A stretch of 64,000 bases of DNA from Haloarcula regularis (GTDB lineage Archaea > Halobacteriota > Halobacteria > Halobacteriales > Haloarculaceae), in NCBI RefSeq assembly GCF_029338315.1, contig NZ_CP119794.1, positions 1,736,001-1,800,000 on the forward strand, read 5' to 3'. This document shows, piece by piece, positions 7,090-57,566 of the stretch (positions are counted from its first letter, which is position 1; every line of letters begins with the position of its first letter). The notes beneath the pieces were generated by a model that saw only the letters and a program-made list of their open reading frames with translations, was not told the origin of the DNA and ran no database searches. A program made the position numbers and the translations under genes.

Positions 7090-8280
7090 ATGCAGATCGA
7101 CACCGCGGTCGTCCTCGCAGCTGGGGAAGGGACCCGGTTGCGCCCGCTGACGCGCAATCGGCCCAAGCCGATGTTGCCGGCGGCTAACCGCCCGATTCTC
7201 GAACACGTCTTCGACGCGCTCGTCGAGGCGGGCATCGAGCGGCTGGTGGCCGTCGTCGGCTTCAAGCGCGACCGGGTCCAGGACCACTTCGGCTCGACGT
7301 ACCGTGGCGTACCGATAACCTACGTCGTCCAGAAGAAACAGCTGGGCAGCGGCCACGCGCTCCTGCAGGCCCGCGAGGTCGTCAACGGGTCGCTGCTGGT
7401 GCTGAACGGCGACCGGCTCATCGACCCAGGGACCGTCGAGGCGGTGGCGAACTCCTTCGCCGAGACCGGCGAGACCAGCATCTCGGTGGTCGAGCGCCGG
7501 GACACCCACCGGTACGGCGCCGTCGAACTCCGTGGCAACGTCATCACCGAGTTCGTCGAGAAACCCCAGAGCGACGACTACCGGCTGATCAACGGCGGCG
7601 TCTACGCCTTCGCCGAGACCATCTTCGACGACATCGAGGCGACGCCGCGCGAGCACGGCGAGCTGGGCCTGACAGACACCATCGAGCGCCTGGTCGACCA
7701 GAACCGCGTCCGGGGCGTGGAGGTCGACGGGATGTGGGTCGACGCGACCTACCCCTGGGACCTGCTCTCGGTCGCCCGCGAGGTGCTAGCCCGCGGTCGC
7801 CTCGTCGAGCGCCGACGGGAGAACCGCATCTGGGTCGACGACTCCGCGACCGTCCACGAGCGCGCGGTGCTCCAGGGCCCCGTCGTCGTCGGCCCCGACT
7901 GCGAGGTCGGCCCCGGTGCTGTAATCGGCCCCAACACCGCGCTGGGGAGCAACGTCACCGTCGGCGCGAACGCCGTCGTCGAGCGCTCGGTGCTCGATGC
8001 CGACACGCGCGTCGACCCGGGGTCGACGCTCATCGACACCGTCACCGGCCAGGGCGTCGACCTCGGCGCGAGCACCGTCGTCCCCGGCGGCCCCGCCGAC
8101 GTCCAGGTCGGGACCGAGGTGTTCGAGGACCAGCGCCTCGGCGCCGTCATCGCCGACCGGGTCAGCGCCCGCGGGAACGTGAGTCTCGACCCCGGCGCGC
8201 TCGTCGGCCCGAACGCCACGCTGCACGCCGGCGTAACCGTGAGTGGGAACGTCCGCGAGAACGCGGAGGTGGTCCGCTGA
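7090..8280 (+). CDS. glmU: Bifunctional sugar-1-phosphate nucleotidyltransferase / acetyltransferase (GlmU-like)
   Basis: The 396-aa protein has an N-terminal nucleotidyltransferase domain (residues 1-230) with the signature [12 protein letters not shown], then KPMLP and the LVLNGDRL metal site. A C-terminal left-handed beta-helix of hexapeptide repeats follows (about 245-396: GPDCEVGPGAVIGPNTALG). This layout matches archaeal UDP-GlcNAc pyrophosphorylase / GlcN-1-P acetyltransferase. Its stop overlaps the start of glmS by one base, so the two form an operon making UDP-GlcNAc for N-glycans and exopolysaccharide. Exact sugar specificity cannot be read from sequence alone. Confidence 0.8.
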   Translation: MQIDTAVVLAAGEGTRLRPLTRNRPKPMLPAANRPILEHVFDALVEAGIERLVAVVGFKRDRVQDHFGSTYRGVPITYVVQKKQLGSGHALLQAREVVNGSLLVLNGDRLIDPGTVEAVANSFAETGETSISVVERRDTHRYGAVELRGNVITEFVEKPQSDDYRLINGGVYAFAETIFDDIEATPREHGELGLTDTIERLVDQNRVRGVEVDGMWVDATYPWDLLSVAREVLARGRLVERRRENRIWVDDSATVHERAVLQGPVVVGPDCEVGPGAVIGPNTALGSNVTVGANAVVERSVLDADTRVDPGSTLIDTVTGQGVDLGASTVVPGGPADVQVGTEVFEDQRLGAVIADRVSARGNVSLDPGALVGPNATLHAGVTVSGNVRENAEVVR

Positions 8281-10074
8281 TGTGTGGCATCATCGGCTGT
8301 GTCGGCCGCGAGGACGCGACGCTGGATACGCTCGTCCACGGCCTCTCGAAACTCGAATACCGGGGCTACGACTCCGCCGGCGTCGCGATCACGAGCGCGG
8401 ACGCCCCCGTCGACATCTGCCGGACCGCCGGCAAGATCGACGACCTCCGCGAGTCCCTGGAGGCCGTCTCGCTGTCGGGGACCGTCGGCGTCGGCCACAC
8501 CCGCTGGAGCACGCACGGGCCGCCGACCGACGAGAACGCCCACCCACACCAGGATTGCCGCGGCGACGTCGCGGTCGTCCACAACGGCATCATCGAGAAC
8601 TACCAGTCGCTCCGTGACCGCCTCGTCGCGGCCGGCCACACGTTCACCTCCGACACCGACACCGAAGTCATCCCCCACCTCGTCGAGGACGCCCTCGACG
8701 ACGGAGCCGACCCCGAGGCCGCGGTCCGCGAGGCCGTCGCCCAGCTCGAGGGGAGTTACGCCGTCGCCGTCGTCGTCGCGGGGACGGAAGCGGTGTTCAC
8801 CGCCCGCCACGACTCGCCGCTCGTCCTCGGCCTGGACGGGGACGCGACCTACCTGGGGAGCGACGTCCCCGCCTTCCGCGATTTCACCGATCAGGTCGTC
8901 TACCTGGCCGACGGCGAGTTCGCCCGCCTCGACACCGACGGCTGGGTCGTCACCGACAGCGACGGGGACCCCGTCGAGAAAGAGGTTAACACCGTCGAGT
9001 GGGACGCCGAGGAGACCGGCAAGAGCGGCTACGACCACTTCATGCTCAAGGAGATTCACGAGCAACCGCGCGCCCTGCGCCAGTGTCTGCGCGGCCGCGT
9101 CGACGAGATGGCCGCCAGCGTCGACATCGGCGATCTGGGCGACCTCTCGCCGACGGGCATCCAGTTCGTCGCCTGTGGCACCTCGTATCACGCCGCGCTC
9201 CACGGCGCGCAGCTGTTCAGAGAGAGCGGCATCCCCGCCCAGGCGTTCCTCGCCAGCGAGTACGCCACGGCGCCCGCCCATCGGCGACGCGCTCGTCGTC
9301 GGCGTCACCCAGAGCGGCGAGACGGCCGACACCCTCTCGGCGCTCCGGGAGGCCCGTCGCCGGGGGGCGCGGACGATGGCCGTCACGAACGTCGTCGGGT
9401 CGACGGCCGCCCGCGAGTGCGACCACGCGTTCTACATCCGCGCCGGCCCCGAAATCGGCGTCGCCGCGACCAAGACCTTCGCCTCGCAACTGGCCGCGCT
9501 CAACCTGCTAGCGCTCGGGATGACCAGCTGTCCCGACGCTCGCGAGGTCATCGCGGCCCTGCGAGACCTGCCGAGCAACGTCCAGCAGGTCCTCGACGAG
9601 TCGGCCGCCGCCGAGGTGGCCGAACTCTACGAGGACGCGAACGCGTACTTCTTCATCGGCCGCGGCTACCAGCACCCCGTCGCACTCGAGGGGGCGCTAA
9701 AGATGAAGGAGATCACCTACAAGCACGCCGAAGGTTTCGCCGCCGGCGAGCTGAAACACGGCCCGCTCGCGCTCGTGACCCAGCACACGCCCGTCTTCGC
9801 CATCGTCACCGGCGACGACGAGCGCGCCCGCAAGACCGTGGGCAACGTCAAGGAGGTCGAGGCCCGCGACGCGCCGGTCGTGGCCATCTCCGACGGCCAG
9901 AGCGACGTGGACCGCTACGCCGACCACGTGCTCGAACTCCCCGAGACTCACCCGCGCGCGGCGGCCATCCTGGCGAACATCCACCTGCAGCTGGTGTCCT
10001 ATCACGTCGCCGCTCGACTGGGCCGGAACATCGACAAGCCGCGCAACCTCGCGAAGAGCGTGACCGTCGAGTAG
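8280..10074 (+). CDS. glmS: Glutamine-fructose-6-phosphate aminotransferase (frameshifted)
   Basis: GlmS makes glucosamine-6-phosphate from fructose-6-phosphate and glutamine. The ATG overlaps the glmU stop (TGATG) and exposes the catalytic Cys as residue 2 (MCGIIGCVG). The N-terminal glutaminase carries EYRGYDSAG and HTRWSTHG; two SIS domains follow (GVTQSGETADTLSA, then the second with YKHAEGFAAGELKHGP), and the C-terminus ends KSVTVE as expected. One extra base in the C-rich run near 9272-9279 shifts the frame between EYATAP and IGDALVV. Both halves are otherwise full length and conserved, so a sequencing error is more likely than a true loss of this central enzyme. Confidence 0.9.
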
Positions 10075-13981: not shown

Positions 13982-14590
13982 TTACCGTGTTCGAGGCTGC
14001 CGTTCGCTCATTTCTGACTCCATCCCGTCGTCGTCAGCAGGAATTTCAGGCGGTGCCAGCAGCGCAACTGCGAGGGCGTACGCTCGCGTCTCGGTCAGTT
14101 CGGCCCACGAATACCGTACCTGGGTACCGACGACTGCGAGCAAGAGCACAGCGACACGGAGACTCAATTCGAGCGGCGTCACCGTCGCTGTTACCAGAGC
14201 GAGGAGCGTGCGCACCGCGAGTGCGACGACGAGCGCGAGACTGACGAACCGGATTGGCTGGGTCCTGAAATCCTGCGCCGTGGTACCGACGAGAGTCTGG
14301 ATTCGCGAAGATTCCCAGGCTCGTCCCACAACAGGGACGAGTCTCTCGAGAACCGCGAGAAAGGGGCCGACAGTCACCGTCTCGCGCAGGTCGATGACGA
14401 TGACGTCGGGTTCCGGTTCCGCGGTCAGCCACCGGAAGAGATACGACTCGCGAACGAAGTGGCCGAGTGTGTCGATACCGTGCCCGATGCTGGAGTAGTG
14501 ATAACTCGCCTCGAGGCCCTCCTGGAATGAGCGAGCCAGGTCTGCGAGTTGCTTGACCGACGAGGCTTCGTAGATCTCCGTGGAATTCAT
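13982..14590 (-). CDS. Haloarchaeal membrane-associated protein, downstream of DUF4330 gene
   Basis: This 202-aa protein has a soluble N-terminal half (SFQEGLEASYHYSSIGHGID, then DVIVIDLRETVTVGPFLAVLERL) and two hydrophobic segments near residues 113-160 (RFVSLALVVALAVRTLLALV and LSLRVAVLLLAVVGT). The tail is acidic and polar. I know no function. It starts 21 nt after the stop of the DUF4330 gene and reads the same way, so the two are probably co-transcribed with the sugar-transferase operon, suggesting an envelope or polysaccharide role by position only. Confidence 0.7.
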   Translation of the reverse strand: MNSTEIYEASSVKQLADLARSFQEGLEASYHYSSIGHGIDTLGHFVRESYLFRWLTAEPEPDVIVIDLRETVTVGPFLAVLERLVPVVGRAWESSRIQTLVGTTAQDFRTQPIRFVSLALVVALAVRTLLALVTATVTPLELSLRVAVLLLAVVGTQVRYSWAELTETRAYALAVALLAPPEIPADDDGMESEMSERQPRTR

Positions 14591-14611: not shown

Positions 14612-15391
14612 CTACGTGCCGACCGACACATTCGTCGTTCCGACCGTGTAGACTTGTCCGTGAAGGGTGGTGGTTTCCGTCACGATAGTCACGTCGTTGT
14701 CCACCCGTAGCGCTCCGCCGGCGAACTGTGGCACCGGTTCCGCGTCCCAGGCCACGAGTTCGACGCCCACCAGTAACTGACGTCGGTGCTCTGTTCGCGA
14801 GCGTTCGGTCACCGTTTCGATCGTCGCGACGGTTTCGTCACCGATGGTGGCCTCCTGCCCGGGTTCGAGCGCACGGGCCGTCGCATCCGTCACGTTCGCA
14901 CTGAGGACGACGGACACACGCGTGGTCGGGATGTCGGTAGCTGTTTGGTTCACCGCGAGGGCATGGGCAGAGACGCGGTAGGAACCCGTCGAGAGACTCG
15001 TATCATCGCCACCGTACAGTCGACCGTCAGTTCCCGATGGTGTGCCGTTGTACGCCACCCGAGTCAGGACGTGGGTCTGGCCGTCGGTCGTGAAACTCCG
15101 GTACACGTCGACGACCGTGAACGTCGTGTCCGCCCCTGGCGGCGTTACCGTATCGTCAGTGTCAAGGAGTGCCGCGTCGCTCGAGAGCGGCGCCGAGTAC
15201 GACAAGGTCGCGTATCGCGTCGTTTCCGATTCGCTCGCTCCAGAGTTCCCGCCACTCGATTGAACCAGCGCCACTCCCGCGACGCCGACCGCAAGAACGA
15301 GCAAGACGACGAGGAGGTCGACGACGTTGACGAGTCCGAGGAGTTTCCCCTCGTCGTCGATGAGTCCTGCAGATTCCTCCGGATCGGTCAT
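14612..15391 (-). CDS. DUF4330-family membrane protein
   Basis: The 259-aa protein begins with the family hallmark LIDDEGKLLGLVNVVDLLVVLLVL, in which a single N-terminal membrane helix follows a short cytoplasmic start. The rest is an extracytoplasmic beta-rich domain with several N-glycosylation sequons (for example NQT, NVT, NVS). DUF4330 genes are commonly found among polysaccharide and glycan genes in haloarchaea, and here it lies directly downstream of a sugar transferase. The molecular function is unknown. Confidence 0.75.
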   Translation of the reverse strand: MTDPEESAGLIDDEGKLLGLVNVVDLLVVLLVLAVGVAGVALVQSSGGNSGASESETTRYATLSYSAPLSSDAALLDTDDTVTPPGADTTFTVVDVYRSFTTDGQTHVLTRVAYNGTPSGTDGRLYGGDDTSLSTGSYRVSAHALAVNQTATDIPTTRVSVVLSANVTDATARALEPGQEATIGDETVATIETVTERSRTEHRRQLLVGVELVAWDAEPVPQFAGGALRVDNDVTIVTETTTLHGQVYTVGTTNVSVGT

Positions 15392-17010: not shown

Positions 17011-17765
17011 TCACTCGCTCGCGGCGAGATTCTCGGCTGCCAGTTCGGGATTGATTTCGCCCTGCAACCGCTCCTCGGCTTCGTCGCGGTCCTCCGGATA
17101 GCCGATGTCGTTGCGCCAGCCGTTCATCCGAATCGCATCGATCGTGCGGCCGGAGTGGAGCAGGAGGTCGATGGCGTCCGAAATTTCGTACTCGCCGCGG
17201 TTCGACGGCTGCACCAGATGACAGGCGTGGAAGATCGCCGGCGTGAACGTGTAGAAGCCGGTCATCACGAGATTCGACGGCGGGTCCTCGGGCTTCTCGA
17301 TGACCTCGGTTATCTCGCCGTACTTGTTGGTGTCACAGACGCCATAGCGGCTCGCCTCGTCCCAGGGCACCTCCTCGACGAGGAAGGCGGCGTCGGCCCG
17401 GTCTTCCTGCTGGCGGTTGACGACATCCTGGAGGTTCGCCTGGAAGATGTTGTCCCCGAGCATCAGCATGAAGTCGTCGTCGATGTGCTCCTCGCAGGTG
17501 ATCAGCGCATGTGCCAGCCCGTTCTGCTCGCGCTGGTGGGTGTACGTGATGGGGACGCCCTCGAACTCGTCCTCGAAGTGGTTGATGATGGCCTGTTTCT
17601 TGTAGCCGACCACGACCAGGAGTTCGTCCGCGCCGAGGTCGATGAGCTGTTCGAAACAGTGAGCGAGGATGGGTTTCCGGCGACTTCGACCATCCCTTTC
17701 GGCTTGTCTTCGGTCAGTGGGCGAAGTCGCGTTCCCTCTCCAGCGGCGAGTACGACAGCCTTCAT
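17011..17765 (-). CDS. Sugar-phosphate nucleotidyltransferase (UTP/dTTP-glucose-1-phosphate type, AglF-like; frameshifted)
   Basis: The protein starts [25 protein letters not shown] and continues after a one-base shift with [27 protein letters not shown], the metal site LMLGDNIF and [18 protein letters not shown] at the end. The total of about 251 aa is the usual size for haloarchaeal AglF/RmlA-type enzymes, which activate glucose-1-phosphate to UDP- or dTDP-glucose. The break is a missing base in a short A run (plus-strand TTT near 17674), which would restore GKPILAHC. It lies between the sugar transferase and three SDR genes and so fits the same glycan pathway. Confidence 0.85.
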
Positions 17766-18021: not shown

Positions 18022-19008
18022 TCAACTGAGTTCGTCGTCGAGGACCGCCTCGATCGTCGACGTGACAGTCTGTTCGGGTTCCCAGCCGAGTCGGTCGTGC
18101 GCTCGAGTCGTATCCACCTCGAACGAGTCGACGAGCGTCTCCTCCCCCGCGCGCGGATTCTCGACCAGTTCGACGTCACAGTCCAAGTTGCGCTCGGCTG
18201 CGGCGTCTCGAACCATGTGAGCGACCGTGTGGACGCCGGGGTCTTCGTCGCTCGCGATCTCGTACTTCTCGGTGCCGGTGGAACCGGCTTCGAGCTGCTC
18301 CAACATGCGTTCCCCACTCCGGACGTACGCTCTGGCCACGTCTTTCACGTGGACGAAGTTCCGCGACTGCGTGCCCGGTTCGTAGACGGTCAGCGTCTCG
18401 CCGGCCAGCGCCCGGGAGAGGAAGAAGTTGATCACGGTCCCTTTCGAGATGCGGTCGCCGTCGATCTCGTGGTCGCCGTAGAGGTTCGAGATCATGAACT
18501 GGTGGGCGGGGAACGCACCGTCGGCGAAGTCCTCGATGGCGCGTTCGTTGAGCAGTTTGGTCCGCCCGTACCAGTTCATCGGATCGCGCGGGTGGTCGAC
18601 GGTCAGCGGGAACTCCTGGGGGTCGCCGAGGACCGCCATCGAGAACGGGAATATCAGCCCGGCACCGGTCTTCCGGCAGAACCAGGCGACGTTCTCGGTC
18701 CCCTGGACGTTGACCTCGTAGGCGAGGTCACGTTGTTCGTCGCAGTCGTCTACGCCGGAGACGGCAGCGAGGTGCATGACGATGTCCGCGCCGGAGAGCG
18801 TTCGTTCCAGGCGGTCGCGGTTCCGGATGTCGACGTGCTCGACGTCGACGTCACCGATCGACCGAACCTGGCCGCGGTAGAAGTTGTCCAGCGCGGTCAG
18901 CTCCCACTCGGGGTACTGTTCCTGCAGGTCGTGGACGACGCGGCTGCCGATGTAGCCGGCCGCACCGGTCACTGCAACGTGTGGCGTCTCGATATCTCCG
19001 TTAGGCAT
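18022..19008 (-). CDS. NAD-dependent epimerase/dehydratase (extended SDR)
   Basis: The 328-aa protein has the Rossmann motif TGAAGYIGSRVVHDL, the acidic end of strand 2 (LTALDNFYRG), an LAAVSGVDDC strand and the catalytic pair in NWYGRTKLL (Tyr-x3-Lys). It belongs to the nucleotide-sugar epimerase/dehydratase group, but the substrate is not readable. The start at MPNGDIETPH overlaps the end of the upstream SDR gene by 8 nt, showing tight operon coupling. Confidence 0.85.
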   Translation of the reverse strand: MPNGDIETPHVAVTGAAGYIGSRVVHDLQEQYPEWELTALDNFYRGQVRSIGDVDVEHVDIRNRDRLERTLSGADIVMHLAAVSGVDDCDEQRDLAYEVNVQGTENVAWFCRKTGAGLIFPFSMAVLGDPQEFPLTVDHPRDPMNWYGRTKLLNERAIEDFADGAFPAHQFMISNLYGDHEIDGDRISKGTVINFFLSRALAGETLTVYEPGTQSRNFVHVKDVARAYVRSGERMLEQLEAGSTGTEKYEIASDEDPGVHTVAHMVRDAAAERNLDCDVELVENPRAGEETLVDSFEVDTTRAHDRLGWEPEQTVTSTIEAVLDDELS

Positions 19009-19930
19009 TGGTGAACTCCGCTGCAAGGTCGCGGACGCCCTCGCGGAGCGTCCATTCGGTCTCGAAGCCGGTACTCGCGAGGCGGTCGAAGTTGACGTGA
19101 TACGACGGGCCCGGATGCTCGTCTTCGAGATAGGTCACGTCGACGGGTGCCACCTCGTCGGCCACGATGTCAGCAATCTCCGCGACGCGGTAGTTGCCGT
19201 CCTCGGAGCCGACGTTGTACACCCACTCGTCCCACGTCTCGGGATGTAACACGGCGTCAGCGTACGCGCGTGCCGCGTCTCGTACATGGACGAACGGGCG
19301 CCAGTTCGAGCCGTCGCCGTAGACGGTCAGCGGCCGGCCAGTCAGCGCGCGGAAGACGAAGTAGTTGACCACGAGGTTGAACCGGACACCCGGCGAGTAG
19401 CCGTAGTTGGTCGCCATCCGCAGGGAGGTGCCGGTCATGTCGAACTCCTCGCAGTACTCGGAGAGGAGCGTCTCGGACTCGAGTTTCGACTCCGCGTAGG
19501 GGTTGATGGGGTCGGGGTCGACCGTCTCGTCGATGTCGGTGCTGGTCGCGCGGCCGTAGACGTTACACGAGGAGGCGAAGACGACGTGGTCGACGCCGAG
19601 TTTGCCCGCCGCGGTCAGGACGTTCTCGGTGCCGTCGTAGTTCACCGCGAAGGTCTCCTCGCGGCGGTCGTGGGTGCTCGCCGCGCCGGTGATAGCCGCG
19701 AGGTGGACGACGCGGTCGACGCCGCGCATCGCGCTCTCGACGTCGCCGTACTCGCGGACGTCGCCCCGGCGGAAGTCCAGGTCCTCGCCCAGGGTGCCCA
19801 GCAGGGCGCGTGGCGACCCCGAGTCGAGGCTGTCGAGGACGACCACGCGGTCGACGCGGTCGTCGTCGCGCAACAGGGGCAACAGCGCGCTGCCGATGTA
19901 CCCACACGCCCCGGTGACCAGCACGTCCAT
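19001..19930 (-). CDS. NAD-dependent epimerase/dehydratase (extended SDR)
   Basis: The 309-aa protein has MDVLVTGACGYIGSALLPLL at the N-terminus (Rossmann G-x-x-G-x-x-G), a HLAAITGAAST strand, SSCNVYG and the catalytic INPYAESKLE. A substrate-domain end with VYNVGSEDGNYRVAEI completes it. It probably works on a UDP- or dTDP-hexose and is a paralog of the gene at 18022-19008. It follows the sulfoquinovose-synthase-like gene with a 3-nt gap. Confidence 0.85.
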   Translation of the reverse strand: MDVLVTGACGYIGSALLPLLRDDDRVDRVVVLDSLDSGSPRALLGTLGEDLDFRRGDVREYGDVESAMRGVDRVVHLAAITGAASTHDRREETFAVNYDGTENVLTAAGKLGVDHVVFASSCNVYGRATSTDIDETVDPDPINPYAESKLESETLLSEYCEEFDMTGTSLRMATNYGYSPGVRFNLVVNYFVFRALTGRPLTVYGDGSNWRPFVHVRDAARAYADAVLHPETWDEWVYNVGSEDGNYRVAEIADIVADEVAPVDVTYLEDEHPGPSYHVNFDRLASTGFETEWTLREGVRDLAAEFTNA

Positions 19931-40857: not shown

Positions 40858-42330
40858 ATGACGAACTTCGAGGTCCGCCAGTACGACGCCGCGGGCCGGT
40901 TAGGGAAACTCGAGGTCCCACGCGCCGGCGTCACCGTGGAGACGCCGACCATCCTCCCGGTCGTGAACCCGCACGTCCAGACCATCGACCCGGCGGCACT
41001 GGCGTCCGAGTTCGGGGCCGAGATACTCATCACGAACAGCTACATCCTGCACAAGTCCGACGAACTCCGCGAGCCCGCCCTGGAACAGGGGCTGCACGAC
41101 CTGCTGGATTTCTCGGGGGCCATCATGACCGATTCGGGGTCGTTCCAGCTCGCCGAGTACGGCGAAATCACCGTCACGACCGAGGAGATCCTGGCGTTCC
41201 AGCGCGACATCGGGAGCGACATCGGGACGCCCGTCGACATCCCGACGCCGCCGGACGTCGACCGCCAACAGGCCGAGGCGGAGCTGTCGACCACCCAGGA
41301 CCGGCTGGAGCGGGCCGCGACCGTCGACACCGACGAGATGCTCGTCAGCGCGCCCGTCCAGGGCTCGACGTATCCGGACCTCCGGGAGGCGGCCGGCCGC
41401 CACGCCGTGGAGACCGGGCTCGACGTCTTCCCCCTGGGCGCGGTCGTCCCGCTGATGAACGAGTACCGCTACGCCGACCTCGCGGACGTGGTGGCGGCGT
41501 GCAAGCGCGGCCTCGGCGAGGTGGGGCCGGTCCACCTGTTCGGCGCGGGTCACCCGATGATGTTCGCGATGGCCGCCGCGCTGGGCTGTGACCTCTTTGA
41601 TTCCGCCGCGTACGCGCTCTACGCTCGCGACGACCGCTACCTGACGGTCCGCGGGACCCAGCAACTCGACGACCTCGAGTACTTCCCGTGTCACTGCCCG
41701 GTCTGTACCGACTACACGCCGGCCGAACTCGACTCGCTCGACGAGGACGCCCGCGAGGACCTGCTCGCGCGACACAACCTCCACGTCACATACGGCGAGA
41801 TTCGCACGGTGAAGCAGGCCATCCGGAGCGGGAATCTCATGGAGCTAGTCGACTCGCGGGCCCGCGGGCATCCGTCGATGGTCGACGGCTACCGCACCCT
41901 GCTGGACCACGCCGAGCAGCTCGAGCGGTCGGACCCCGCCTCGAAGCACGCGATGTTCTACACCTCACACGAGAGCGCCCGTCGGCCCGAGGTACTACGG
42001 CACCACGAACGCCTCGATCGGTTCGAACTCGACGGCGACGAGGTCCTGCTGACCGAGGGCGGGTCGAACGACCGCTACGACGAGACGTGGGGCGTCCTGC
42101 CGCCCTTCGGCCCGTATCCTCGGGAACTCTCCGAGACCTATCCGCTGAACGCCGAGACGCCCGAGCGAGCAGACGGGGCCGCGTGTGAGATGGCCGCCGA
42201 CGGCGTCGCGCGACTGGTCGACAGGCATCCCGACGTCTCCTTTACGCTGGTCCACGACGACTGGCCGGAGACGGCGCTCGAACGGGTGCCCGAGAACGTC
42301 CGCGTCCGGGACCTGCACGAGCGGGAGTGA
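40858..42330 (+). CDS. tgtA: Archaeosine tRNA-guanine transglycosylase
   Basis: This 490-aa enzyme exchanges guanine-15 of tRNA for preQ0, the first tRNA step to archaeosine. Hallmarks are [42 protein letters not shown] (catalytic Asp), [13 protein letters not shown] and the zinc site [14 protein letters not shown]. The PUA domain of longer archaeal TGTs is absent, as in other haloarchaea, where it resides on the ArcS paralog. arcS and raSEA follow at 53.4 and 59.7 kb. Confidence 0.95.
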
Positions 42331-53431: not shown

Positions 53432-55219
53432 ATGACCGACTACTTCGAGGTCCACGAGCGCGACGCCGCCGCGCGACTGGGCGAATTACGCCTCGCCGAG
53501 TCCGTGACGACGCCGGCGATCGTGGACGACGTGGAGGCTGACACCCCGGGAGCCGTCCACACCCTGCTTCGCGACGGCGGGAGTCTCTGGGCCCAGGACG
53601 GGTCCGACCCCGAGGGCGACGACAGCGCGGTGACCGTTCTTCCCTACCGCGGGCTGCCGGCCGGCACGCCCGACGAGGTGGCCGACGCCTTCGCCGGTGA
53701 CTACCCCGACGTCGACTTCCCCAGCGCGGCCGTAGTGTCGCCCCGGACCGCAGGACAGCACACCGGCGACGTGACCGTCCTCTCGGGGGCCCCGGGCTAC
53801 GTCGGCCACGGTGAGGCCTTCGTCGACGCCATCACGGCCGTCCGCGAGGCGACGCCGAGCGACACGGCGCTCTACCTGCCCGGCGTCGCCACCCCGCGCA
53901 ACGTCGCGACGCTGGTCTATGCCGGTGTGGACCTGGTGGACCCGGACCGAGCGGTCGTCCGCGGCACCGAGGGGCGCTATCTCACCACCGACGAGGCGTA
54001 CTTCCTCGAGGACCTCGAGGAGCTGCCCTGTGCGTGTCCGGCCTGTCAGGTCCCGCGCGACGAGTTCGACCGCGAGGCCTGCGTCGCCCACAACGTCAAC
54101 GCGCTGGCCGCCGAACTGCGTCGGGTCCGCCGGCGCATCCGCGACGGCCGCCTCCGGGACTACGTCGAGGGGCAGGCCCGCCAGGACAACTGGCTCACGG
54201 CGACGGTCCGCCTGCTCGACCAGCAGTACGGCTACGTCGAACAGCGCACTCCGCTCATCCGCCGCGCCCAGCTCTCAGCCGCAACGGAGGACGCCATCCG
54301 CCGCGTCGAGATTCAACGGTTCGCCGAGCGCGTCACCGAGCGCTACGTCCCCCGCTTCGACGACCGCCCGCTCGTGCTCGTCCCCTGTTCCGCGCGCAAG
54401 CCCTACAGCGACTCCCAGAGCCACGAGCAGTACCACGACGCCGTCCACTGGCGCGCGCACATGGTGTCGATGACCTCCCCCATCGGCGTCGTCCCCCAGG
54501 AGCTCGAACTCACCTACCCCGCACAGCACTACGACTCCGTGGTGACCGGCGAGTGGAGCGCCAACGAGGTCGAGTTCGTCAGCGCCGTCCTCGAACGGTA
54601 CCTCGAAGACGCCGACTACCCGGAGATCATCGCGCACGTCCCCGGGGAGGGGTACCGGGACATCTGCGAGCGCGTGGAGGAGTCGCTGGGCCTCGAGTTC
54701 AGCTACACCGTCTCGGACCACCCGACGACGGCCGACTCGCTGGGCAACCTCGCCGCGGAACTCGAGGGGTGGGACACCTACCGGAAGTCGACCCGCGAGG
54801 CAAACACCGTCCGCGCCGTCGCGGACTACCAGTTCGGGGAGGGTGCCGGTGACTCACTCTTCGACGACATCCAGACGACGGGTCGCTATCCCCAGCTGCG
54901 CGCGGACACCCAGGACGGCGAGCAGCTCGCCGCGCTCGCCCAGCAGTACGGCGTCCTCTCGCTGACGCTCGCCGGCGCCCGCCGTTGGGTCGAGAGCGAC
55001 GTGCCGACGAAAACGGTGGAGATCGAACCGTTCGTCCCCCACGGCTCCGTCCTTGCCCCTGGCATCACCGACGCCAGCGACGACATCCGCGTCGGCGACG
55101 ACGTGGTCGTCCGCGGGGACGCCGCCTTCGGCGTCGGCCGTGCCCAGATGAGCGGGCCGGAGATGCGCGACTCGACGCGTGGTATCGCCGTCCAGATGCG
55201 CCACGTCGAGGAACAGTAG
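53432..55219 (+). CDS. arcS: Archaeosine synthase (ArcS, TGT paralog)
   Basis: The 595-aa protein starts MTDYFEVHERDAAARLGELR with a degenerate TGT-like half (zinc site ACPACQVPRDEF). It then has the ArcS-specific core VLVPCSARKPYSDSQSHEQY and a C-terminal PUA domain (FVPHGSVLAPGITDASDDI, VGDDVVVRGDAAFGVGRA). ArcS adds lysine to preQ0 at tRNA position 15, and RaSEA then releases archaeosine. The catalytic Asp loop of TgtA is replaced, as expected. Confidence 0.92.
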   Translation: MTDYFEVHERDAAARLGELRLAESVTTPAIVDDVEADTPGAVHTLLRDGGSLWAQDGSDPEGDDSAVTVLPYRGLPAGTPDEVADAFAGDYPDVDFPSAAVVSPRTAGQHTGDVTVLSGAPGYVGHGEAFVDAITAVREATPSDTALYLPGVATPRNVATLVYAGVDLVDPDRAVVRGTEGRYLTTDEAYFLEDLEELPCACPACQVPRDEFDREACVAHNVNALAAELRRVRRRIRDGRLRDYVEGQARQDNWLTATVRLLDQQYGYVEQRTPLIRRAQLSAATEDAIRRVEIQRFAERVTERYVPRFDDRPLVLVPCSARKPYSDSQSHEQYHDAVHWRAHMVSMTSPIGVVPQELELTYPAQHYDSVVTGEWSANEVEFVSAVLERYLEDADYPEIIAHVPGEGYRDICERVEESLGLEFSYTVSDHPTTADSLGNLAAELEGWDTYRKSTREANTVRAVADYQFGEGAGDSLFDDIQTTGRYPQLRADTQDGEQLAALAQQYGVLSLTLAGARRWVESDVPTKTVEIEPFVPHGSVLAPGITDASDDIRVGDDVVVRGDAAFGVGRAQMSGPEMRDSTRGIAVQMRHVEEQ

Positions 55220-55226
55220 CGAACGG

Positions 55227-57566
55227 TTATCCGACCGTCACGTTCTGGCCGTCGTAGACCGCCGCCTGGGAGACGTCGATCCGACGGGTTTCGCCGCCCG
55301 CTACCGTCACGGTGTACGGTCCGGGGTTCGCGACGGTCACCGCGAACGCGCCCGTCGCGTTCGTCGTCGCCTGGCGCTCGTACTCGAACGACGTCCCCGA
55401 GACGGTGACGTCCGTCGTGACCGTCACGGTGGCGTTCGCCGCCGCGGTTCCACGGACGGTGGCTCCCGGCACCAGGGCGAACGCCTTGTGGCTCCCGCTC
55501 TCGCTGGCGTAGACTGGCTGGAGATGTCCCAGTCCAGCGACGTCGCCGTTTCGACTCCCCATGGCGTCGTGCATCCGGCCGTACATCGTCTCGGCCGGCA
55601 GGTCGGGCCCGTCGGTCGTGACGACGTAGCCGACCCGGCCCGAATAGCGGTCGTAGACGCCCGCTGGCGACTGGGAACTGAGAAACTGTGGGTGGTTGCT
55701 CCGGGCGTAGCCGTAACTTTCGGATTCGCCGCTCACGAAGTAGTTGTACACGCGGCTTTGCCCCCACCGACTGAGGACGTAGTTCTGATTGTATTCGAGT
55801 TCGCGCTCGGCGGCGTTCGCCTCGATAGCACTCGCCGCCTCGTAGGTACCGTCCTCGATGACGACCTGGCTCGTCTTGACCGGGACCTGCAACATTCCGA
55901 AGCCGCCAAACAGCAGGAAGAGGACGACCAGCGCACCGAGGGTGCGTGTCTCCGGGACGACGACGTCGACGACATCTCGGCCGCCATCGGTCGAAAGCGG
56001 CCGGGCGAGGTCGATCCAGGAGGCCACCCACACGAACGCGACGCCGGTAAACAGCGCGGCGAACGTCGCCAGTTCGCCGACGAACCGGACCTGGATGGTC
56101 GCGAGCGCGAAGAAGAACCACGCGTAACTGCTGGCGACGAGCCATCCGAGCGACCCCTCACGTGCTTGCTGGACGCCCCAGGCCATCGCCGGGAGCGAGA
56201 GGATGAGCGTGAAGCCAAAGAGGAGCAGGAAGCCAAAGGAGTCGGCGTTGAAGAGCCCGTACGTCTCGGCGATGGCGTCCGAACGAAAGAGCGTATCGAG
56301 ACGGCCCCGTACGGTCGCCCACTGCGCCGGGAGGCCAAAGCGGAGGACGAGGAACCCGACGACACCGAGCCCGACGTCGATTCCGGCCAGTTGTCTCGCG
56401 GTGCCGTCGGCTCGACGAACGGCCTCGGCAGTCAACGAGACCGCCAGTATTCCGACGGTCAGCAGTGCTGGCGTCGAGGCGACGAGGGCTGTCTGCCAGC
56501 CGGCAACCGCGTGGACGCCCCAGGCGAGGACAGCCCCCAGCGTCGTCCCTGCGAGGACCGGCGCGTTCGTGCGGAGCGACGACCGGTCGGCCGAGACGTC
56601 GAGAATCGTCTTGCCCGTCAGGGCGATACCGACGGGCAAAATCAGCAGCGGGCCTGCCTCCCACGCGAGGACCTGTCCGGCCAGACCGAGTCCGAGCCCA
56701 CCGGCAGCGAGCCAGATGCCCGGTGCGCGTAGCGAGTTCCTGTCCACGTCAGCCGTCAGCAGGACGACCAGCGCCAGCGTCGTCAGGCCGAGCCACGGGT
56801 AGTCGAAGGCGTGGTGGTCGGCGAACCCCAGACTCGTGCGGAACGCGTGGCCGGGGATAAAGGCCAGAAAGAGGACCGAGGCCAGGCCGACGCGTCTGTC
56901 GTTGGTCACGCGAAGCGCGAGCGCGTAGAGCAAGACGGCAGTGACGAGCGCCGAGACGACCGGGTACCACGCGAGTACGTGCCCGATGGCCTCGGTGCTC
57001 CCGCCGAATAGACTGGCGACCCACCAGAGGGTCGCGACCATCAGTGGTTCGCCCTTGACGAGGCTGCCGGCCATCGCCGAGAGCGCGCCGAAGTCGGCCG
57101 CGCTCCCGGCCTGGGCGGCGACCTGTTCGACGTGGTACCGGTAGAAGTACGGGTCGTTCCCCGAGAGGACGATGTCGCCGCCGCGGTATATCGAGCCGAC
57201 GACGTAGGCGCGGGCCACGACGACGACGGCCAGCGCGGCGGCCAGAAAGCCGACCGCCCGCGACTCCAGTTCGAAGTCTGTGAGCGAGGAAAGCGATTCG
57301 GAGCGGCCTCGCGACCCGGAACCAGCCTCGGCGGCGGGCTCCCCGTCCAGGATCGCGCGAACGGTCTGCGGGTCGGCGACGCGGTACTGGCCGTTTGCCT
57401 TCTCGACGAGACCGGCCGAGACGAGTTCGCCGAAGTGGCCCGAGTCGACGGGGACGTCGTCGAAGTCCCAGCCGTCGGCCTCGTCGTCGACGGCGAGGAC
57501 CGCTTCAGCGGCGGATTGCAGTTCGGGGCGGTCTTCGAGGACCGCCGCCCCGGACTCGTCGTTCAT
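55227..57566 (-). CDS. STT3/AglB-family membrane protein lacking the canonical WWDYG motif
   Basis: The 779-aa protein has an N-terminal winged-helix-like stretch (about 30-75: FGELVSAGLVEKANGQYRV), about 12 membrane helices starting near residue 105, GNDPYFYRYHVEQV in the first external loop and GFADHHAFDYPWLG in the second. Both are in the positions of the acidic metal motifs of oligosaccharyltransferases. In the C-terminal part NYVLSRWGQSRVYNYFVSG stands where AglB has WWDYG. It ends in a carboxypeptidase-like beta domain. It is an STT3 paralog; whether it transfers glycans is unknown. Confidence 0.8.
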   Translation of the reverse strand: MNDESGAAVLEDRPELQSAAEAVLAVDDEADGWDFDDVPVDSGHFGELVSAGLVEKANGQYRVADPQTVRAILDGEPAAEAGSGSRGRSESLSSLTDFELESRAVGFLAAALAVVVVARAYVVGSIYRGGDIVLSGNDPYFYRYHVEQVAAQAGSAADFGALSAMAGSLVKGEPLMVATLWWVASLFGGSTEAIGHVLAWYPVVSALVTAVLLYALALRVTNDRRVGLASVLFLAFIPGHAFRTSLGFADHHAFDYPWLGLTTLALVVLLTADVDRNSLRAPGIWLAAGGLGLGLAGQVLAWEAGPLLILPVGIALTGKTILDVSADRSSLRTNAPVLAGTTLGAVLAWGVHAVAGWQTALVASTPALLTVGILAVSLTAEAVRRADGTARQLAGIDVGLGVVGFLVLRFGLPAQWATVRGRLDTLFRSDAIAETYGLFNADSFGFLLLFGFTLILSLPAMAWGVQQAREGSLGWLVASSYAWFFFALATIQVRFVGELATFAALFTGVAFVWVASWIDLARPLSTDGGRDVVDVVVPETRTLGALVVLFLLFGGFGMLQVPVKTSQVVIEDGTYEAASAIEANAAERELEYNQNYVLSRWGQSRVYNYFVSGESESYGYARSNHPQFLSSQSPAGVYDRYSGRVGYVVTTDGPDLPAETMYGRMHDAMGSRNGDVAGLGHLQPVYASESGSHKAFALVPGATVRGTAAANATVTVTTDVTVSGTSFEYERQATTNATGAFAVTVANPGPYTVTVAGGETRRIDVSQAAVYDGQNVTVG

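Follow-up and report, generated by a model that had tools for sequence, protein, structure and literature searches.

What does a relative of the oligosaccharyltransferases (OSTs) do once it has lost the motif by which such enzymes hold their acceptors? To our knowledge, N-glycosylation enzymes in all three domains are marked by that motif, WWDYG, which binds Ser/Thr. The question is raised by a gene in a 64,000-nucleotide stretch of the Haloarcula regularis genome (contig NZ_CP119794.1, positions 1,736,001 to 1,800,000; hereafter the window, whose own numbering is used unless another locus is named). The open reading frame (ORF) at 55227..57566 on the reverse strand (−) starts with ATG, was confirmed to be real and encodes a 779-amino-acid STT3/AglB-like membrane protein, which we refer to as STT3p. 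Genes of this type are already annotated, under the RefSeq label ‘STT3 domain-containing protein’, but without explanation. Here we argue, with a probability that we put at about 0.5, that STT3p works in parallel with AglB as an active, OST-like enzyme that transfers polyprenyl-pyrophosphate-linked glycans, and that its acceptor is not picked by an Asn-X-Ser/Thr pocket.

Homology to STT3 is evident from the sequence, which matches the Pfam family STT3 (PF02516) at 31.6 bits (cut-off of 24.5) and AglB_L1 at 28.9 bits (cut-off of 23.6); the Pfam scan of the protein gave no match to any O-antigen ligase/polymerase family up to an E value of 10. The score against the NCBIfam model of archaeosortase A system-associated AglB (TIGR04154) was 138.7 bits, far under its cut-off of 450. 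An AlphaFold2 model, computed from an alignment of 46 rows (the window’s protein and 45 unchanged homologues), had a mean predicted local distance difference test score (pLDDT) of 90.3, and its top match in the PDB was Archaeoglobus fulgidus AglB (AfAglB; 3waj, Z of 35.0, 600 residues aligned, root-mean-square deviation of 4.3). Structures of AfAglB (3waj, 7e9s and 5gmy) head the solved relatives, followed by eukaryotic STT3 and PglB, and the protein is predicted to have the OST/GT-C fold.

The GT-C membrane core (residues 101–530; 55977..57266, −) aligns with AfAglB, and a sequence profile pairs GNDP with GNDP, DHH with DHH and IAE with IAE. These matches correspond to the G-N-D-P motif of external loop 1 (EL1; residues 136–139, within GNDPYFY at 136–142; 57150..57161, −), the D-H-H motif of external loop 2 (EL2; residues 250–252, within DHHAFDY at 250–256; 56811..56819, −) and a TIXE-like motif, A-I-A-E (residues 431–434; 56265..56276, −). 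The protein also has a peripheral β-domain of the AglB_L1 type (residues 701–775; 55242..55466, −). WWDYG is absent from the window’s STT3p sequence; its place is taken by S-R-W-G-Q-S-R-V-Y-N-Y-F-V (SRWGQSRVYNYFV; residues 599–611; 55734..55772, −), which stands at the start of a helix (601–612) in the model. STT3p is therefore homologous to STT3 and shares the OST fold, yet one defining OST motif is absent. A first-pass annotation of the window, made by a model from the letters alone, had named structure prediction, alignment with AglB and a search for a separate canonical aglB as ways to check its view of the gene. The first two returned the OST fold, with the EL1, EL2 and TIXE regions aligned to AfAglB, and the third found a canonical AglB with SWWDYGHW, the sole other STT3 match in the genome. 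Because the same genome has this separate canonical AglB, STT3p is a paralogue and not the only OST.

What has been kept and what has been replaced was read from 74 STT3p members, after removal of duplicate sequences and of hits spanning fewer than 600 query residues; 52 representatives with less than 70% identity gave the same picture. The EL1 acid D138 is present in 73 of the 74 (the remaining row is a gap), D250 of EL2 in 67, with Glu at that position in 6, H251 in all, E434 of the TIXE-like motif in 71 and R494 in all. The loss of catalytic residues that would mark a pseudoenzyme was not seen over the 74 members. WWD occurs in none of them, compared with 55 of 59 canonical STT3 sequences from Halobacteria and other members of the phylum, 3 of the other 4 being truncated. 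At the same place W601 and N608 are invariant (74/74) and R605 nearly so (73/74); 73 members show the pattern W...R..N, more than chance would give, and the family consensus reads S-x-W-G-x-N-R-M-Y-N-Y-F-V-N-G. Alignment with the genome’s own AglB shows that the second Trp of WWD is kept, as W601, and that the first is variable; the position of the Asp is held by Gly in 55 members, Ser in 10 and Asp in 7. The earlier claim that WWDYG has been replaced and the external-loop acids kept thus extends to the whole family. Purifying selection is indicated by a ratio of non-synonymous to synonymous substitution rates (dN/dS) of 0.15 between the window’s gene and that of its nearest complete relative, and of 0.11 in the transmembrane core (one pair). 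In AglB, according to the available parts of two studies, the WWD part and the DK/MI motif hold the Ser/Thr at position +2, and TIXE pairs with the peptide backbone (PMC3703281, PMC8342417). Because the catalytic residues of OSTs are conserved in STT3p while the WWD pocket has given way to another invariant motif, it is likely, judging from the sequences, that catalysis was kept and the reading of the acceptor changed.

STT3p is a widespread companion of AglB in the class. At E values of 1e-20 or better it occurs in 215 of 391 Halobacteria genomes and in 60 of 86 genera, including all 24 genomes of the window’s genus in this class sample; 10 of the 69 named STT3p loci are titled Haloarcula or Halomicroarcula. 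Strong full-family matches in a 196-genome sample of the phylum are confined to the same order, and outside it there are only weak STT3-like matches (E of about 1e-9 to 1e-14). All 44 order-sample genomes with a completeness of at least 90% and no more than 5% contamination match PF02516, so STT3p appears beside AglB and not in its place. In a tree of 72 rows (IQ-TREE in quick mode; 16 of 46 STT3p rows, every third being taken; three truncated rows dropped), the STT3p rows form one side of a branch with a support of 100 and are separated from 29 rows of haloarchaeal AglB and 27 rows of other archaeal STT3; the branch is long (1.53), which leaves the exact root open. As a separate clade with this support, STT3p is not a recent copy of AglB. 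The first-pass annotation would have given way to an ordinary AglB with a displaced motif; the separate clade, the absence of WWD from every member and the presence of an ordinary AglB in the same genome all speak against that. Several STT3 proteins in one archaeon are known from A. fulgidus, but its paralogues S1, S2 and L are all described, in the accessible part of the source, with WWDYG and a DK-variant motif (PMC3703281).

Individual members vary in form. Many STT3p proteins are longer by about 200 residues at the C terminus (for example, L096:15001-17949; such members have about 980–1,080 amino acids), and RefSeq annotates this extra part as a LamG-like fold in Haladaptatus. One near relative has a second, split copy (G011 C1:3329494-3331829, L046), and the gene is split in Haloarcula japonica (L048/L132). 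A relative that has no STT3p retains its first ~57 residues, which run into an apparent part of a UDP-sugar dehydrogenase (L051:9432-9800), by eye a probable deletion remnant. A search of titles and the beginnings of abstracts, with subscription journals mostly outside it, found no paper that describes the clade, its motif or its N-terminal module.

The genes with which STT3p travels point to its donor. It tends to be inherited together with a bacterial-type phosphoglycosyltransferase (PF02397) and the polyprenyl-pyrophosphate phosphatase BacA. PF02397 enzymes make polyprenyl-pyrophosphate-linked sugars, and BacA recycles polyprenyl pyrophosphate. Across the 391 genomes, PF02397 is present in 202 of the 215 with STT3p and in 39 of the 176 without it (both, 202; STT3p only, 13; PF02397 only, 39; neither, 137). 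The corresponding counts for BacA are 177, 38, 33 and 143, and all three genes are present in 173 genomes and absent in 129. Such counts treat related genomes as independent, an effect that is lessened by counting genera (by hand: both STT3p and PF02397, 57; STT3p only, 3; PF02397 only, 13; neither, 13; P = 4e-6). Among the matches listed, 91 genomes have places for both STT3p and BacA, and in 17 of these, from six families, the two genes are no more than 1.5 kb apart; for STT3p and PF02397, 68 of 85 such genomes have the two within 50 kb of each other. By rough arithmetic, this proximity is far beyond chance in genomes of about 4 Mb.

The wider neighbourhood is rich in sugar genes. In the 10-kb surroundings of the 69 named loci, several of them short or cut off by the end of a contig, we found an epimerase at 35, PF02397 at 33, a UDP-glucose/GDP-mannose dehydrogenase at 27, a nucleotidyltransferase at 25, a GT4 glycosyltransferase at 23, DUF4330 at 15, a sulfatase at 10, a flippase at 9 and BacA at 8; these classes rest on a crude ORF caller and on single-linkage clustering, and ten of the clusters were named from one Pfam-scanned member each. 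On the five plasmids viewed, annotated neighbours of STT3p include BacA on two and surface, S-layer or PGF-CTERM proteins on three, the latter not being evident on the other two. STT3p and PF02397 stand together in other Haloarcula. The Haloferax volcanii control genome has no match to PF02397 or BacA, which fits the absence of the pathway there, and has a PF02516 match that AglB alone would explain.

We infer that the donor is pyrophosphate-linked because PF02397 and BacA handle polyprenyl pyrophosphate, unlike the carriers of Haloarcula hispanica, in which the sugar carriers reported for S-layer and exopolysaccharide (EPS) synthesis are linked to dolichyl phosphate, as far as the available text goes (PMC9943897). 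The arrangement resembles the bacterial PF02397/flippase/BacA (Wzx/Wzy-type) pathway, with whose genes STT3p is co-inherited and often clustered, flippases and glycosyltransferases being found at some loci; it differs in that the terminal transferase of the STT3p line would be an OST relative, replacing or standing beside a Wzy/WaaL-type protein. The EPS genes HAH_1662/1667 of H. hispanica were considered as a direct tie and set aside: the accessible portions of the two reports name GT-B-type glycosyltransferase genes and an AglB homologue, HAH_1202, and not STT3p (PMC5467301, PMC9943897).

STT3p begins with a module, residues 6–74 (57345..57551, −), that the first-pass annotation had suspected of being a winged helix, and the predicted fold bears this out. 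Folded alone, the first 79 residues reached a pLDDT of 86.0 with helices (H) and strands (E) in the order H-H-H-E-E-H (H6–12, H15–29, H42–50, E54–57, E60–63 and H66–73), the topology of a winged helix. Its VIA structural neighbours are mostly ArsR, MarR and ORC winged-helix chains (best Z of 6.6); Foldseek against the PDB gave no confident match (best E of 0.34), and Pfam has no family for the module. The structural match is therefore moderate, and the lack of a strong hit does not argue for a new fold.

The same module is found on a protein insertase. A profile search of 142 family genomes returned, besides STT3p, matches with E values of about 1e-10 to 1e-13 in frames of ~300 amino acids; nine of these proteins were read, and the four that were scanned with Pfam are EMC3_TMCO1 (PF01956, E of 1e-37 to 1e-47). 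Over 30 order-wide EMC3 loci, 28 of 29 recovered proteins match the module profile at an E of 1e-3 or better and the 29th at 0.0024; the 30th locus (L261) matches at 2.3e-7 in a scan of all ORFs. The EMC3 of the window’s own genome (L235, C1:1350103-1350603 and upstream) matches at 1.7e-9, and comparison of the module profile with an EMC3 N-terminal profile gave an E of 9e-17, with the same result from another set of loci. Module-bearing EMC3/TMCO1-like insertases were recorded at loci L225–L228, L230–L234, L235 and L236–L264. Because matches weaker than 1e-18 among the 10,980 ORFs over all loci are EMC3-type by locus and length, save three marginal ones (E of 0.0009–0.0034), the module is not a generic winged helix. 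Two PMT_2-type GT-C proteins (L050:9719-11548 and L229:1636-3984), about 15–19 kb from STT3p, begin with it as well. The haloarchaeal EMC3/TMCO1 (DUF106, YidC-like) insertase thus has a homologous N-terminal module and a membrane domain unrelated to that of STT3p, and the two may share a partner. If EL1 lies outside, as in AglB, the module of STT3p must be cytosolic.

STT3p resembles the AglB/STT3 OSTs (AfAglB-L, 3waj/5gmy/7e9s; TIGR04154) in its GT-C fold, EL1 and EL2 acids, TIXE-like Glu and AglB_L1 domain, but it lacks WWDYG, has its own motif (WGxxRxxNY) and an extra winged helix, forms a separate clade and scores under the TIGR04154 cut-off. We propose a pathway in which the PF02397 phosphoglycosyltransferase would place a sugar-1-phosphate on polyprenyl (presumably dolichyl) phosphate, cluster enzymes would lengthen the glycan and a flippase would move it outside. 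There STT3p, through the metal-binding acids of its external loops and the TIXE-like Glu, would take the glycan off its pyrophosphate carrier and attach it to an acceptor, and BacA/UppP would recycle the pyrophosphate released. The WWD pocket for Ser/Thr would not be used; W601-x3-R605-x2-N608, at the start of the same helix as WWD, may form a different one. The acceptor would most likely be a site in a surface or membrane protein that lies off the usual sequon, either O-linked or N-linked under another rule; a protein is favoured because the AglB_L1 domain and TIXE-like motif are kept, surface proteins are neighbours on three of the five plasmids and the module is common with an insertase. 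The winged helix, which would be cytosolic, may dock STT3p at a partner that it would share with the EMC3/YidC-like insertase. Of this account, the computations show the fold, the clade, the conservation, the coupling of the genes and the common module, and we deduce from them the activity, the carrier, the acceptor and the docking.

Several observations weigh against this proposal. PF02397 is missing from 13 genomes with STT3p and BacA from 38, and 39 genomes have PF02397 without STT3p. The window’s STT3p has no sugar genes as direct neighbours; 38 kb separate it from PF02397 and about 226 kb from the BacA of that genome. The DK/MI segment, the other half of the Ser/Thr pocket, falls outside the profile alignment with AfAglB. 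With Asp at the D position of the motif in 7 of the 74 members, some +2 recognition might remain. Some members, in which hits start at residue 83–136, have no winged helix, so docking is not essential for all of them. The EMC3 module may lie on either side of the membrane, an extra hydrophobic segment before the first transmembrane segment of EMC3 having fallen below threshold.

The main rival holds that STT3p is a polymerase or ligase of surface polysaccharide that adds polyprenyl-pyrophosphate-linked units to another glycan or lipid, like Wzy or WaaL. It draws on the exopolysaccharide-type neighbourhood (PF02397, UDP-glucose dehydrogenase, epimerases, flippase and GT4), on the loss of the sequon pocket, on a coupling to BacA that suits Wzy/WaaL as well as an OST and on the acidic exopolysaccharide of H. 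hispanica, whose pathway is incomplete in the parts of the reports available (PMC5467301, PMC9943897). We consider it rather unlikely, as the fold is that of an OST (Z of 35 to AfAglB) with AglB_L1 retained, the TIXE-like motif persists (in AfAglB, TIXE pairs with the backbone of the acceptor peptide, according to the accessible text of PMC8342417), at least one STT3p cluster has a separate O-antigen-ligase-type gene and the N-terminal module is common with a protein insertase. An ordinary Asn-X-Ser/Thr enzyme whose +2 pocket has been rebuilt from W601 and R605/N608, acting as a second AglB that handles another lipid-linked glycan, is a less probable alternative still. Every other OST element tested is retained, W601 aligns with the second Trp of WWDYG, Asp follows it in the 7 members mentioned, and AglB paralogues are described in several archaea in the part of PMC3703281 available; the difference in WWD between STT3p (0/74) and canonical sequences (55/59) is nevertheless fixed throughout a separate clade.

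The two functions proposed in the first-pass annotation have fared differently. Action on another acceptor is the better supported, by constrained catalytic residues and an invariant motif of its own, whereas a winged-helix regulator or sensor without catalytic activity now seems very improbable. The link to a PF02397/BacA pathway and the presence of the N-terminal module on EMC3-type insertases lay beyond what that annotation could see. The winged-helix fold and the missing WWDYG suggested such a role, but the catalytic acids and R494 are conserved as in enzymes, the gene is tied to those for donor synthesis and carrier recycling, and homologous winged helices on an insertase and two other GT-C proteins point to a common docking module rather than to gene control. 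Broken or split copies in some relatives might suggest a decayed copy of aglB; we give this very little credence, the gene being intact in most genomes listed, under purifying selection (dN/dS of 0.15, one pair), class-wide and in a clade of its own.

If STT3p is indeed a transferase to sites off the sequon, it would serve as the en bloc enzyme for glycosylation outside the sequon, possibly O-linked; the archaeal O-glycosylation pathway is termed elusive in the available part of one report (PMC8241124). The clade would show how an OST is re-aimed at another acceptor, with the catalytic centre kept and an equally invariant motif in place of the old one, and the protein is a concrete candidate for haloarchaeal surface glycosylation that is as yet unassigned. 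A module common to an OST relative and an insertase would suggest a physical link between glycosylation and insertion in archaea, as at the eukaryotic translocon. Taken together, most Halobacteria genera might have a second protein-glycosylation line with bacterial-type ends (PF02397 as starter, BacA for recycling) and a non-sequon OST relative, whose winged helix sits at the partner of the EMC3/YidC-like insertase; this broader picture is tentative, and on balance we doubt it. The hypothesis can be tested in Haloarcula, a genus with genetic tools.

The window itself holds a sugar cluster on the reverse strand. It includes the only PF02397 match of the genome (15481..16944, −), the proposed starter of the lipid-linked glycan, together with a nucleotidyltransferase homologue for sugar-1-phosphate activation (17014..17676, −), an NAD-dependent sugar epimerase/dehydratase (18022..19008, −) and a second homologue of this kind (19010..19930, −). 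Two further genes there recur as neighbours of STT3p elsewhere: a DUF4330 protein (14612..15391, −) and ‘c10’, an uncharacterized protein with no Pfam match (13982..14590, −). Homology to GlmS at 8280-10071 (+) falls into two pieces, the frames of which differ near 9270, owing to a frameshift or an assembly error. The window also has an archaeosine pair, ordinary in kind, of an ArcS-like protein (DUF5591, TGT_C2 and PUA; 53432-55219, +) and TGT (40858-42330, +); a few other genomes also have ArcS-type ORFs close to STT3p.

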